From Dactylosporangium roseum (lineage in GTDB: Bacteria; Actinomycetota; Actinomycetes; Mycobacteriales; Micromonosporaceae), in assembly GCF_025264685.1 (NCBI RefSeq), contig NZ_CP073721.1:7271501-7335500 (forward strand): a DNA stretch of 64,000 nucleotides, written 5' to 3'. Under the pieces are notes generated by a model. That model saw only the letters and a list, made by a program, of their open reading frames with translations. It was not told the DNA's origin and did not search any database. Below, piece by piece: positions 14,900 to 36,605 of the stretch (positions within the stretch are counted from its first letter, which is position 1; each line of letters opens with the position of its first letter). The translations under genes were made by a program, and so were the position numbers.

Positions 14900-14979
14900 G
14901 CGTCGATCTTGCAGTTGTGGTGCCTGACAAACCCGGACATCGCGGGAGTGTCATGGCACCACAACTGCAAGATCGACGC
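14900..14979. repeat. 80-bp palindromic repeat, copy R1
   Basis: Two perfect 25-bp arms (14900-14924 and 14955-14979; core ATCTTGCAGTTGTGGTGCC) enclose a 30-nt loop that itself has TGACA/TGTCA at its edges. The loop sequence is shared, inverted, with copy R2. It lies between the CIRCE region of groES and the -10 box of the divergent methyltransferase, 2 bp from that box. Confidence 0.92.
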
Positions 14980-16928: not shown

Positions 16929-17408
16929 GTGGCGAGCAAGGGCACTCCGGCGACCGCTCTGTTGACGCGCGCGAAGATCGCGTTCACCCCGCACACGTAT
17001 GAGGTGGACCCCAGAGCCGCCTCCTACGGCGAGGCCGCCGCCGCGGCGCTGGGCGTCGACCCGGCGCGCCTGTTCAAGACGCTGGTGACCACGGTCGACG
17101 GCAAGCTCACCGTGGGTGTGGTCCCGGTGTCGTCGTCACTCGACCTCAAGGCCCTCGCGGCGGCGGTGGGCGGCAAACGCGCCGCGATGGCCGAGCCCGC
17201 GGCCGCCGAGCGCGCCACGGGCTACGTGACCGGTGGCATCTCCCCGGTCGGCCAGCGCTCCCGCCTCCCGATCGTCATCGACAGCTCGGCGTCCACGTTC
17301 GCCACGGTGTTCGTGTCAGGCGGCCGCCGCGGCCTCCAGATCGAACTCGCCCCCGCCGACCTGCTCACGGTGACCGCCGCCCGTTCCGCACACATAACCA
17401 CCCGCTAG
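16929..17408 (+). CDS. ybaK: Cys-tRNA(Pro)/Cys-tRNA(Cys) deacylase, YbaK/EbsC family
   Basis: 159 residues, family length. It hydrolyses cysteine mis-attached to tRNA(Pro), a trans-editing step in translation. Seen: TPATALLTRAKIAFTPHTYE, SYGEAAAAALGVDPARLFKT (with the conserved Lys in FKTLV), VVPVSSSLDLKALAAAVGGK, and GYVTGGISPVGQRSRLPIVI, the hallmark glycine loop. Cytoplasmic. Leaderless start at GTG 16929. Repeat R2 lies 21 bp after its stop. Confidence 0.93.
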   Translation: MASKGTPATALLTRAKIAFTPHTYEVDPRAASYGEAAAAALGVDPARLFKTLVTTVDGKLTVGVVPVSSSLDLKALAAAVGGKRAAMAEPAAAERATGYVTGGISPVGQRSRLPIVIDSSASTFATVFVSGGRRGLQIELAPADLLTVTAARSAHITTR

Positions 17409-17429: not shown

Positions 17430-17509
17430 GCGTTGATCTTGCAGTTGTGGTGCCGCGACACTCCCACGATGTCCGGGTTTGTCAGGCACCACAATTGCAA
17501 GATCAACGC
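17430..17509. repeat. 80-bp palindromic repeat, copy R2
   Basis: Arms 17430-17454 and 17485-17509 differ from perfect pairing by one base (a G-T position). Against R1 both arms changed together (GCGTTGATC/GATCAACGC), a compensatory substitution that keeps the pair. The loop ATGTCCGGGTTTGTCA is the reverse complement of the R1 loop, so this copy is in the opposite orientation. It ends 10 bp before the -10 box of the DUF1707 gene. Confidence 0.92.
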
Positions 17510-22587: not shown

Positions 22588-23026
22588 GCATCATCACCAG
22601 TGCATCCGTGTTGCTGGGCTGGTAGTAGCCGCGGCGGACGCCGACGGCCTCGAAGCCGTAGCCGGCATAGAGCTTCTGGGCGGGCGCGTTGTCGACCGCC
22701 ACCTCGAGCAGGACCTGCCGCGCGCCACGGGCCTCCGCCTCGGCGAGCAGCGCCTCGAGCAGGCGCCGGCCGATCCCGCGCCGCTGGGCGTCCTTGCGCA
22801 CCCCGATGTTCTGGATCCAGGCCTCGTCCGGCGGCGTGAACGCCAGCCCGGCATAACCGAGCACCCGGTCGCCGTCGAGGGCCACGAGGTAACGGTGGCC
22901 GCCGGCCAGCTCGTTCCAGAACATCGCGGCCGACCAGCGCTCCTCGCCGAACAGCTCGTCCTCGATCGGCAGAAGTTGCTCGATGTGGAACCACCGCAGC
23001 TCCGCGAGCTCGACCGTCCGGTTCAC
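22571..23026 (-). CDS. rimI: GNAT acetyltransferase RimI-like
   Basis: 151 residues, one GNAT domain. RimI acetylates the N-terminus of ribosomal protein S18 and may have other targets. The acetyl-CoA loop is [19 protein letters not shown]; before it are WIQNIGV and after it [20 protein letters not shown], with the Tyr in AGYGFE typical of the family. It lies between tsaB and tsaD with GTGA overlap to tsaB. This arrangement is widespread in actinobacteria. Confidence 0.92.
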
Positions 23027-23682
23027 CGCAGCGCCGGCTTCCGTTCACCGGGCGCCACGGCGTCGGGACGGCGCAGGTAGAGCGGAACGAGCGTCTCGCC
23101 GGGCGCCTTGTCCAGGATCCGCTCGGCGGCGAGCTCGGCCAGGGCCTGGACCGACGGGTGTCGCGGGCCGGTGACGGGCAGCCGCAGCACCGCCTCGTAT
23201 CGCTCGGCGCCCTCGCCGGCCGCGGCCGTCACGCCTGCCAGTGTGAGCGCGACCACATCGGGCTTCGCCACCCCGGGCTCACCGTCGCGGACGCCGTCGG
23301 TGTAGGTCGCCCAGTAGATCTCCTTGCGACGCGCGTCGGTCGCGACCAGCACCCGGCCGGGCAGCCGGTGGCCGATGGCGTCGAGCGAACTGACACCGTA
23401 GACCGGGAGGGCGAGCGCATGGCCCAGCGCCGCGGCGGTGACGAGGCCGGCGCGCAGCCCGGTGAACGGCCCTGGGCCCACACCGGCCACCACGGCGGCC
23501 AGGTCGCCGGCCGTCTTGCCGCAGCCGGCCAGGACGGCGGTGATCTGCGGGGCCAGCAGCTCGCCCGCACCGCGGGCGTCGACGGTCACCCGCTCGTCGA
23601 GCAGGGTCACACCGTCGTCACCGACCGTGACAAGTCCTGCGGTCACCGCAGGGGTTGCCGTGTCCACCACCATCACCAGCAC
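23023..23682 (-). CDS. tsaB: TsaB, tRNA threonylcarbamoyladenosine complex scaffold
   Basis: 219 residues from the preferred start. TsaB is a TsaD paralogue that supports TsaD and TsaE in t6A37 synthesis. Seen: VVDTATPAVTAGLV, the ASKHA-type GVGPGPFTGLRAGLVTAAAL, VYGVSSLDAIG and VATDARRKEIYWATY. GTG at 23682 is chosen because a TACAGT box ends 7 nt upstream; longer in-frame starts add residues unlike the family. First gene of the tsaB-rimI-tsaD unit. Confidence 0.93.
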   Translation of the reverse strand: MLVMVVDTATPAVTAGLVTVGDDGVTLLDERVTVDARGAGELLAPQITAVLAGCGKTAGDLAAVVAGVGPGPFTGLRAGLVTAAALGHALALPVYGVSSLDAIGHRLPGRVLVATDARRKEIYWATYTDGVRDGEPGVAKPDVVALTLAGVTAAAGEGAERYEAVLRLPVTGPRHPSVQALAELAAERILDKAPGETLVPLYLRRPDAVAPGERKPALR

Positions 23683-23689
23683 GGCCCCA

Positions 23690-23695: not shown

Positions 23696-23859
23696 GAGGA
23701 GCCCACCGCCGATCCCGGCCGCCGACCCGGCCATTGCGACGTCACAACCACGATCAGTTAACCGGGCCGCAACGAGCGGCTCCTACCATCGGCCGACATC
23801 TACGCAGGGCGGCGGGTCGAGTCGCGGCCCTGGACCGTGCCGGGCGGCCGCGGCGCCGC

Positions 23860-24918
23860 CTAGACCGTATCCACGCTCTCGCCGCGTCGATCTTGCAGTT
23901 GTGGTGCCTCATGAACCGGGCATTCCGGGAGTGTCCCGGCACCACAACTGCAAGATCGACGCGGGTGGACGGCCATCGCGGTCAGGCGGTGGGCGAGTTG
24001 GGCGGCGGCCTCCCGCAGCTCCGGAGGCTCCAGCACCTCCGCCTCGAAGCCCAGCCGGGCCACGTGCATGGCGAGCCGGTGCAGATCCTCCCCGCCGACG
24101 ACGAGCACGCACCACCCGTCGCGATCGTCCTCGACCCGCCCCACCTGGGGCGGCACCAGCTCCCGCACCCGGTCGGGCCGGGCGTGCAGCCGCACCCGGG
24201 CGAGATGCCGATACGGCGCCTCGGTCACGGACCGCTGCACGTAGGCGACCGGGTCCGGATGCTCCGTCGCCCGGAAGCGCCAGGTCGTCGCCACCACCTC
24301 GCGCATCCGGTCCAACCGGAAGGTGCGCCAGTCGTCGCGGTCGACGTCCCGGGCCATCAGGTACCAGCGGCGGCCGGTGGTGACCATCCGCAGCGGCTCG
24401 ACCGTCCGCTCGCGCTCCCCGCCGTCGCGGCCGGTGTACCGGAACCGCACCCGCACGGCGTCGCGAACGGCCCGTGCGAGCGTCACCAGCAGCTCCGCGT
24501 CGATCTCGACCCCCGGGCCGACGAGGGTCTCGGTGGCGCCGTGCACCGCCCGCACCTCGGCGCGCAGCCGGGGCGGCATCACCTGGTCGAGCTTCGCGAG
24601 CGCCCGCAGCGCGGCCTCGGCCGCCCCGGCGACCGTGCCGCCCGACGCCAGCCGCAGGGAAACCGCCGTCGCGATCGCCTCCTCGTCGTCGAGGAGCAGG
24701 GGCGGCAGCCGGGTGCCCGCACCGAGCTGGTAGCCGCCGCCGACGCCCGCCGACGCGTGCACGGGGTAGCCGAGTGTGCGCAGCCGCTCCACGTCGCGGC
24801 GCACCGAACGGTCGGTGACCCTCAGCTCGGCGGCCAGCTCGGCGGCGGTCCAGGACGGCCGCCGTTGCAGCAGCGTCAGCAACCGCAGCACCCGCTCGGT
24901 CGTCGCCTCGACGGTCAC
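23860..24918 (-). CDS. WYL-domain transcriptional regulator, C-terminus encoded by a repeat
   Basis: 352 residues. The N-terminal DeoR-like HTH is RVLRLLTLLQRRPSWTAAEL then DRSVRRDVERLRTLGYPVHA. The WYL ligand domain is in the middle (EPLRMVTTGRRWYLMARDVD), and a C-terminal WCX-type part follows. The recognisable family sequence ends at about LAHRLTAMA. Residues about 319-345 are read from palindrome R3, and only seven more follow before the stop. The tail is Cys-rich ([15 protein letters not shown]) and unlike the rest. This suggests that the repeat displaced the original stop. Divergent from the small ORF and the VOC gene. Confidence 0.85.
   Translation of the reverse strand: MTVEATTERVLRLLTLLQRRPSWTAAELAAELRVTDRSVRRDVERLRTLGYPVHASAGVGGGYQLGAGTRLPPLLLDDEEAIATAVSLRLASGGTVAGAAEAALRALAKLDQVMPPRLRAEVRAVHGATETLVGPGVEIDAELLVTLARAVRDAVRVRFRYTGRDGGERERTVEPLRMVTTGRRWYLMARDVDRDDWRTFRLDRMREVVATTWRFRATEHPDPVAYVQRSVTEAPYRHLARVRLHARPDRVRELVPPQVGRVEDDRDGWCVLVVGGEDLHRLAMHVARLGFEAEVLEPPELREAAAQLAHRLTAMAVHPRRSCSCGAGTLPECPVHEAPQLQDRRGESVDTV
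23884..23962. repeat. 79-bp palindromic repeat, copy R3, inside a coding region
   Basis: Perfect 25-bp arms (23884-23908 and 23938-23962) enclose a 29-nt loop whose CCGGGCATTCCGGGAGTGTC matches the R1 loop in the same orientation with several changes. It overlaps the 3' end of the WYL regulator gene and lies upstream of tsaB. Confidence 0.92.
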
Positions 24919-35816: not shown

Positions 35817-35894
35817 GCGTCGATCTTGCAGTTGTGGTTCCGGAATACCCGAAATATCCGGGCGAGCCAGGCACCATGACTGCAAGATCAACGC
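35817..35894. repeat. 78-bp palindromic repeat, copy R4 (decayed)
   Basis: Arms 35817-35841 and 35870-35894 keep the core GATCTTGCAGTTGTGG/TGCAAGATC but differ at four of 25 positions. The loop retains ATCCGGG in the R2 orientation. It begins 18 nt after the stop of the lipoprotein gene. Confidence 0.85.
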
Positions 35895-35912: not shown

Positions 35913-36605
35913 TCAGGACTTGGTGAAGGTCCAGGTGCCGGTGTCGCCACCCTGCGGCGGGGAGAGCTTGAGGGTGTTGCCGCCGCACTCGTACCGGCTC
36001 TTCTTGAGCACCGGCTGCGCGTCGACCGCACCGCCCGTCTCGGCGGAGCCGGAGTCGGCGAACTCGCTGATCGCCACCTTGTCGGCGGCCCGGACCGAAG
36101 CGGGTGCGGTCAGGTCGACGGTCACCGTCAGCGTGCTGAAGTCGACGGTGCCGGTCGGCTCGAGCGTGCCGCTCGGCGTGGTGGGGGTCTTGACCGCGCC
36201 GTTGACCTTGCCGCCGTAGGAGAAGCTGCCCTTCACGTCGTTGCCGGAGACGGAGAACGTGAAGGTCACCGGCTGCATGGAGCCGAAGTCGACCTGCGTC
36301 TTGCCGGCCGAGTCGATGGTCAGCAGCGTGCCCCCGCCACCCTGGAACGTGCCGTCGACCGGCCCGCTGAGCTTGCCGGTCAGGTTGCCGGCCTTCCAGG
36401 TGCCGACCAGGCACGACGCCGCGGAACCGGTGCCGCTGCCGCCGCCGCTCGAACCCGAGGCACTGCTTGACGGAGCCGTCGAGGTGCTGCCGGAGGCACC
36501 GGCCGAGATCGACGAACCCGGAGTACCACCATTACCACTACATCCGGCGAGCCCGATGCCGAACACCGCAACAGCCGCTGTGGCGACCTTGCCGGTCGTG
36601 CGCAT
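35913..36605 (-). CDS. Secreted lipoprotein, unknown function
   Basis: 230 residues. The signal ends in lipobox LAGC with Cys22, followed by a Ser/Gly/Thr-rich linker to about residue 63. The domain after it begins ASCLVGTWKAGNLTG, which recalls the first strand of lipocalin-like folds, and contains two further Cys (C65 and YECGG near the end) that may form a disulfide. It ends GGDTGTWTFTKS. I cannot assign a function. SD AAGGAGG precedes the ATG. No operon partner. Confidence 0.8.
   Translation of the reverse strand: MRTTGKVATAAVAVFGIGLAGCSGNGGTPGSSISAGASGSTSTAPSSSASGSSGGGSGTGSAASCLVGTWKAGNLTGKLSGPVDGTFQGGGGTLLTIDSAGKTQVDFGSMQPVTFTFSVSGNDVKGSFSYGGKVNGAVKTPTTPSGTLEPTGTVDFSTLTVTVDLTAPASVRAADKVAISEFADSGSAETGGAVDAQPVLKKSRYECGGNTLKLSPPQGGDTGTWTFTKS

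Follow-up and report, generated by a model that had tools for sequence, protein, structure and literature searches.

How a transcription regulator came to read through a palindromic repeat, and what the repeat normally does at gene ends, are the questions raised by one gene of the window, the 64,000-nucleotide stretch of the Dactylosporangium roseum genome that was analysed. The gene was found on the minus strand (24918-23860) as an open reading frame encoding 352 amino acids and closed by TAG at 23862-23860. No stop codon interrupts it across the palindrome copy R3, as had been claimed in a preliminary description of the locus, whose coordinates for the R3 region proved correct to a few bases. 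Pfam analysis of the protein clearly revealed the domains HTH_11 (residues 9-64), WYL (143-208) and WCX (239-312), all above curated cut-offs, and this combination of HTH, WYL and WCX places it among the WYL-domain regulators; no NCBIfam model was obtained at an E-value of 0.001. Family similarity had been expected to end ahead of the tail, and indeed the WCX match stops at residue 312, while the alignments with seven solved structures finish at query residues 205-308. The chain continues for 40 residues past 312 and does not end shortly after WCX, which is a pattern seen in relatives and no formal criterion of the family. This 40-residue overhang is the anomaly of the protein, and no argument against its WYL-family membership.

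Beyond the sequence ...LAHRLTAMA, which ends with residue 316, 36 residues follow (317-352, positions 23863..23970, minus strand). About 27 of them (319-345) are encoded by R3 and seven by the spacer behind the repeat, where the present stop codon TAG (23860..23862) is located. Three cysteines are present among these 36 residues, in good agreement with the roughly 34 additional residues and several Cys of the preliminary description. The R3 unit itself, GCGTCGATC...GATCGACGC, covers 79 bp (23884..23962). Folding with DNA parameters produced two perfect arms of 27 nt (23882-23908 and 23938-23964) around a loop of 29 nt (23909-23937), with a z-score of -8.8, and none of 200 shuffled sequences was as good. 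The 20-nt arm, with up to three mismatches allowed, was detected eight times in the window against 0.01 expected. A search of window positions 23700-24100 in Rfam gave nothing above the gathering score and only two sub-threshold microRNA matches.

R3 appears to be one copy of a dispersed palindrome of about 80 bp which lies mostly directly behind stop codons. The conserved unit consists of the arm GCGT(C/T)GATCTTGCAGTTGTGGTGCC, a loop of 28-30 nt and the inverted arm, about 80 bp in all and very constant in length. Within the D. roseum genome, a single contig of 8.22 Mb, 220 forward and 217 reverse arms were counted with up to two mismatches, compared with 6 and 4 for the same pattern read backward. 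Further copies in the window are R1 (14900..14979), called between divergent genes; R2 (17430..17509), a T variant located 21 nt behind the stop of a plus-strand gene ending at 17408; and R4 (35817..35894), located 18 nt behind the stop of the minus-strand gene 35913-36605. In D. fulvum the site of R1 has no arm, that of R2 has one degenerate arm, and a diverged copy is found beside the gene end corresponding to R4.

The distribution of the repeat was investigated in 354 genomes of the family, where at least one match (with up to one mismatch) was found in 171, many of them with just one; low counts mean little, because the backward-read controls also give single matches. Inside the genus, forward/reverse arm counts of 187/192, 144/144, 123/124 and 41/42 were obtained for four genomes, the 187 forward arms being those of D. 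roseum, while three congeners gave 0. High copy numbers are patchy across genus and family. Among the matches listed, exact copies came from records of Dactylosporangium sucinum, D. fulvum and Virgisporangium aurantiacum. No match to the repeat was obtained in plasmids, nor to the exact pattern in viral contigs. The 16-nt arm was absent on either strand from the literature texts searched, and in a search lying mostly outside subscription papers no description of Dactylosporangium palindromes or of Micromonospora miniature inverted repeats was found. Larger repeated inverted units around a palindrome variant, with no called gene inside, were observed in D. fulvum (L063:417-1245 and L089:119-331).

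The position of the copies relative to genes was determined with a home-made, codon-based gene caller, so that gene limits are approximate. From the roughly 220 copies of the D. roseum genome, 132 distinct ones were classified: 60 lie between tandem genes, 54 between convergent and 13 between divergent genes, three lie inside open reading frames and two were left unassigned. The repeat-free gaps of at least 1 bp at the same loci comprised 91 tandem, 19 convergent and 19 divergent cases, and all adjacent gene pairs, overlaps included, 142, 29 and 23. Convergent positions are therefore strongly enriched in copies (Fisher p 9e-7 against the gaps, 6e-8 against all adjacent pairs). Among 171 gene ends facing a copy, 15 enter the repeat; the stop precedes it by 0-49 nt in 130, by 50-99 nt in 19 and by 100 nt or more in seven. 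The median distance from stop to repeat is 22 nt. A similar overall picture emerged from 119 copies of a mixed set that spans several genomes and overlaps in part with the D. roseum set (62 convergent, 51 tandem, four divergent, one inside a gene and one unassigned). By analogy with REPs (PMC12306157), a strong hairpin just behind genes may influence termination, the stability of the mRNA or the final stages of translation, and such effects, close to the stop and at mRNA 3' ends, would be the ordinary role of the palindrome.

The hairpin shape and the location behind stops and in the gaps of convergent gene pairs (54 of 132, with the p-values given above) are also what would be expected if the palindromes were ordinary terminators evolved in place and no mobile repeat had been dispersed. 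This explanation is considered improbable, since it is opposed by the recurrence of the arm sequence among copies and across genera and by clean repeat-free sites in relatives. One example is L084, a copy between convergent genes: in D. fulvum (G004) the two stops overlap, as they do in G005, and in G003, G001 and G006 they are separated by 8, 17 and 17 bp; none of these five genomes has the repeat there, and G002 could be aligned on one side only. As the relatives are repeat-free at L084, the simplest reading is a gain of this copy by the D. roseum lineage. A similar situation was found at L009, where the convergent stops of D. fulvum are 5 bp apart and, as at L084, almost no intergenic DNA is left; in five outgroup loci no alignable block was obtained for L009.

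Altogether 30 D. roseum copies were sought in D. fulvum and 26 could be paired, the exceptions being L025, L072 and L087, for which no usable match was obtained, and L013, whose match fell outside the tolerance applied. In 18 of the 26 paired loci no arm-like sequence was detected with up to three mismatches, five contained both arms, two contained one, and the remaining one (L003) showed a coding match only. At L011, adjacency on both sides was found in a single outgroup, D. sucinum, which has a different hairpin at this place. The latter, located in D. sucinum L224 just before position 1431, is unrelated to the D. roseum palindrome which occupies the intergenic site, a sign that hairpins of different kinds may settle at sites of this type.

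At the WYL locus, D. fulvum is collinear with D. roseum on both sides of the gene at about 95% nucleotide identity, with several indels. The syntenic WYL orthologue is 94% identical over residues 1-317 and consists of 319 amino acids ending in ...LARRLAAIAGTG*, with no repeat. Two further close homologues, of 316 (79% identity) and 328 amino acids (86%), are repeat-free as well and are located in a different gene neighbourhood. Across 29 homologues, paralogues included, the tails past residue 312 measure about 3-21 amino acids, compared with 40 in the D. roseum protein, and no repeat arm (up to three mismatches) was found within 200 nt of the stop in any of them. The alignment with orthologues proposed in the preliminary description thus gave the shorter, repeat-free proteins it had predicted, and no homologue lacking the repeat carried the same tail. 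This bears directly on the alternative that the tail is an old, conserved and functional part of this WYL subfamily. The uninterrupted frame would suit such a tail, as would the captured segments in three other proteins (described below), which have stayed open in two species. It is nevertheless contradicted within the sampled genomes by its absence from all 29 homologues, including the three at 79-94% identity, and has to be regarded as extremely improbable.

The reason why the frame remains open became evident from the way in which other genes end in the repeat. Base 5 of the arm is C or T, and the T variant reads CGT-TGA-TCT in one frame (GCGT-TGA-TC). Twelve gene ends in the D. roseum genome use this arm TGA, and all 12 copies have T in both arms. 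The arm TGA serves as the stop in 12 of the 14 gene ends that enter a copy in this frame, or in 12 of 15 if L262 is counted, a doubtful open reading frame which spans its copy in the stop frame with CGA. The two exceptions are L323 (CbiJ/CobK) and WYL. L323 enters a C variant in the same frame as WYL and is closed by a TGA located where the loop begins. WYL enters R3, also a C variant, in the stop frame, but with the other loop orientation it meets neither the arm TGA nor the one at the loop start. Its codon 321 is CGA (23956..23958, minus strand), where same-frame copies elsewhere have the stop TGA. The gene end at L312 enters its copy in a frame different from that of WYL.

Frame usage at run-in gene ends is strongly biased, 14 of 15 being in the frame that offers stops (binomial p 2e-6, with one third expected); with the spanning frames L252, L262 and L321 added, of which only L262 is in the stop frame, 15 of 18 do so (p 2e-5). 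This bias fits selection against long tails. The remaining facing arms of the genome are divided into 79 T and 77 C, so that 12 of 14 with T (or 12 of 15, counting L262) amounts to a moderate excess. In other genomes all eight gene ends in the stop frame have T, seven of them only in the arm used; this cross-genome set comprised ten cases in all, two of them from D. roseum. At L316 (1086-1164), the two TGAs of one copy end both convergent genes, which now finish in the same few codons, and the repeat is absent from the corresponding gap in D. fulvum. For L253 and L029 the D. fulvum genes extend beyond the insertion point, and the last native codons have therefore been replaced. For L309 and L319, two additional cases, the D. 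fulvum site itself contains a copy, complete or shortened. The usual outcome of the repeat is thus a position just behind a stop, or the supply of the stop itself, as far as 132 of the roughly 220 copies of the genome tell, and WYL is an exception, which refines the preliminary description.

Since a single C/T change separates CGA from TGA and only one genome of the species was compared, the R3 allele could be rare or a one-base error. Codon 321 would then really be TGA, through a sequencing or assembly error or a recent mutation of the isolate, and a protein ending at 320 amino acids would come close to the 319 of D. fulvum; T is also common at this position (79 T to 77 C, as above). R3 however has C in both arms, whereas the 12 TGA-ended cases of the genome have T in both, and the assembly is a single 8.22-Mb contig. 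It is therefore very improbable that codon 321 is really TGA.

It is most likely that a copy of the palindrome came onto the 3' end of the WYL gene, that the native stop was lost and that the frame now reads through R3, adding about 33 residues. The placement would most probably have occurred in the lineage of D. roseum after its split from D. fulvum, with loss of the native stop near codon 320. Most copies entered in the frame of WYL carry the arm TGA, where the gene simply ends. The C variant of R3 (CGA, Arg321), together with a loop orientation which has no in-frame TGA, leaves no stop in the repeat, so that translation should run through the arms and the loop to the TAG in the spacer. The product would be an otherwise complete WYL protein with about 33 additional residues, including three cysteines, in which the tail, if translated, is presumably tolerated rather than useful. 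The earlier proposal that the repeat landed in or next to the stop codon and was captured as protein is supported at the level of sequence by the 319-residue, repeat-free orthologue of D. fulvum.

An insertion onto the stop would be indistinguishable from a small deletion joining the gene to a repeat that was already present downstream of the stop. That the repeat first landed behind the WYL stop and was joined to the gene later by such a deletion is possible, though clearly less likely than direct placement. It would start from the most common arrangement, given the 130 of 171 facing gene ends whose stop precedes the element by 0-49 nt, and the interval between WYL and the neighbouring gene is rearranged relative to D. 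fulvum. A direct trace of a deletion is absent, and comparison of L253, L029 and L316 with D. fulvum shows the repeat at or before the native stop. The downstream gene (23023..23688, minus strand), which we take to be tsaB from its product and neighbours, is separated from WYL in D. fulvum (L099) by about 2.1 kb more, with another open reading frame, relative to window positions 23815-23883. More than one event has therefore taken place at the WYL locus. The additional frame presumably encodes an Hsp70/WD40-like protein, judging from its translation. A remnant of this gene beside R3 was sought and rejected as not significant, 60 of 300 shuffled sequences scoring as well. No third genome with the same WYL gene neighbourhood, which would root the difference, was found.

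Three other proteins of the genome also contain the repeat in frame. In L321, 27 repeat-encoded residues separate the membrane part of an ABC transporter from its ATPase part; in L252, a TPR protein has the repeat inserted after its TPR region and ahead of a hydrophobic segment; and the protein of L312, an AI-2E family transporter whose Pfam match is below the curated cut-off, has the repeat as its C-terminal tail. All three proteins have a matching segment in D. fulvum, where both arms are recognisable at the DNA level in the ABC and TPR genes and one arm in the AI-2E gene. Paired arms were not found in the congener loci (five for ABC, five for TPR and four for AI-2E), an absence which is clearest for AI-2E because the congener ABC and TPR linkers are long and variable. 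Between the two species, the 81 captured codons gave dN 0.160 and dS 0.405, compared with 0.060 and 0.137 for 1006 other codons. From these values, captured codons appear to change faster while the frame is kept, with a dN/dS ratio about the same as in the rest. In Virgisporangium (L174), the repeat forms the tail of an EamA transporter. The open reading frame at L262, with the repeat at residues 66-92, the CGA frame and no Pfam match, was left out of the captures as an unreliable gene call. A weak open reading frame spanning a copy was also seen at L064 of the mixed set.

The sequences flanking the copies were analysed for traces of insertion. Direct repeats at fixed offsets showed no clear excess in 127 copies (counts of 0-1 for at least 4 nt, against 0-0.8 expected), the outer limits of the copies being variable. 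At L084 and L012, the two flanks overlap by 4 bp at the empty site, which makes them possible target duplications. The flanks were found to be complementary to each other: a perfect run of at least 8 nt was present in 18 of the 132 D. roseum copies against 0.27 expected, and in none of 1000 shuffles was this reached. Beyond the conserved unit, the flanks are often mutually complementary yet copy-specific (L242, L250, L253, L316, L021, L080 and others). This looks like inverted copying of flank sequence. Position-by-position pairing of the flanks in 127 mixed copies was near chance, unlike the run-length test on the 132 D. roseum copies.

Several known systems were compared with the repeat. Rickettsia palindromic elements (RPEs) are dispersed palindromes of about 150 bp found in frame in unrelated protein-coding genes, where they add an extra peptide; of the first RPEs to be reported, almost half are located within open reading frames (PMC10969869). 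Like them, the repeat described here is in frame in the WYL, AI-2E, ABC and TPR proteins and, in Virgisporangium, in the EamA transporter. It differs by its length (about 80 bp), its occurrence in another phylum and the small number of copies within open reading frames (WYL, L312, L252 and L321 among 132, with L262 as a doubtful fifth); the two were set side by side by description, with sequence checked in Rfam only. In Escherichia coli, REPs less than 16 nt from the stop are reported to lower translation (PMC12306157), and the high copy number and position close behind stops (median 22 nt) are common to REP/REPIN and the present repeat. RPEs are the nearest precedent for protein capture and REPs for stop-proximal hairpins.

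REPs measure 20-40 bp and those of the GTAG type are tied to RAYT tyrosine transposases, while CGTC-tagged palindromic repeats have an unpaired CGTC, loops mostly of 4-5 nt and no dedicated transposase known there (PMC3733652). The present repeat is unlike REP/RAYT elements, with their 20-40 bp and unpaired GTAG or CGTC tag, in that it has about 80 bp and its CGTC lies inside the stem. With the CGTC-tagged repeats it shares the motif near its ends, but here the motif is part of a 27-bp stem and the loop has 28-30 nt. Like MITEs and SPRITE-type terminator-like repeats (SPRITE being an abbreviation listed in PMC10969869), it is short, forms a hairpin with terminal inverted repeats and contains no coding gene; a clear direct target duplication was not seen apart from the two loci with possible 4-bp ones, and no autonomous partner was detected among the loci examined.

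A RAYT/Y1 transposase was considered as the mover and rejected. The domain PF01797 gave no match in the D. roseum genome (G000), nor in the copy-rich congeners G002 and G003. Two matches were obtained in D. fulvum (G004), which is the only one of the eight genomes with more than 50 forward arms to be among the 101 PF01797-positive genomes. This absence speaks only against a mover of the GTAG kind, because for CGTC repeats, too, no dedicated transposase is reported. Long elements ending in the arms were rejected as well, since the unpaired arm-like matches among the loci examined appeared to have arisen by chance, to lie in coding sequence or to be isolated or degenerate arms. Tentatively, the repeat could be a mobile gene-end cassette which inserts at 3' ends, including those of convergent genes with almost touching stops, carries an optional stop in each arm (so that a single copy can close two converging genes), often leaves inverted, copy-specific duplicates of the flank and is moved by an enzyme other than RAYT. 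Were this the case, WYL would show the result of such a cassette landing without its stop.

In proteins, the repeat is mostly avoided or closed by TGA and is sometimes tolerated as a tail or linker, and WYL is probably a recent, tolerated case of read-through. R3 is an apparently recent example of a non-coding repeat turned into protein sequence, present in one genome and absent from a relative of about 95% identity. Older captures, common to two species, sit in the same genome, where the opposite outcome, the repeat supplying the stop codon, has occurred many times. With the two outcomes separated by the one-base difference between CGA and TGA, the origin of new C-termini becomes directly testable.
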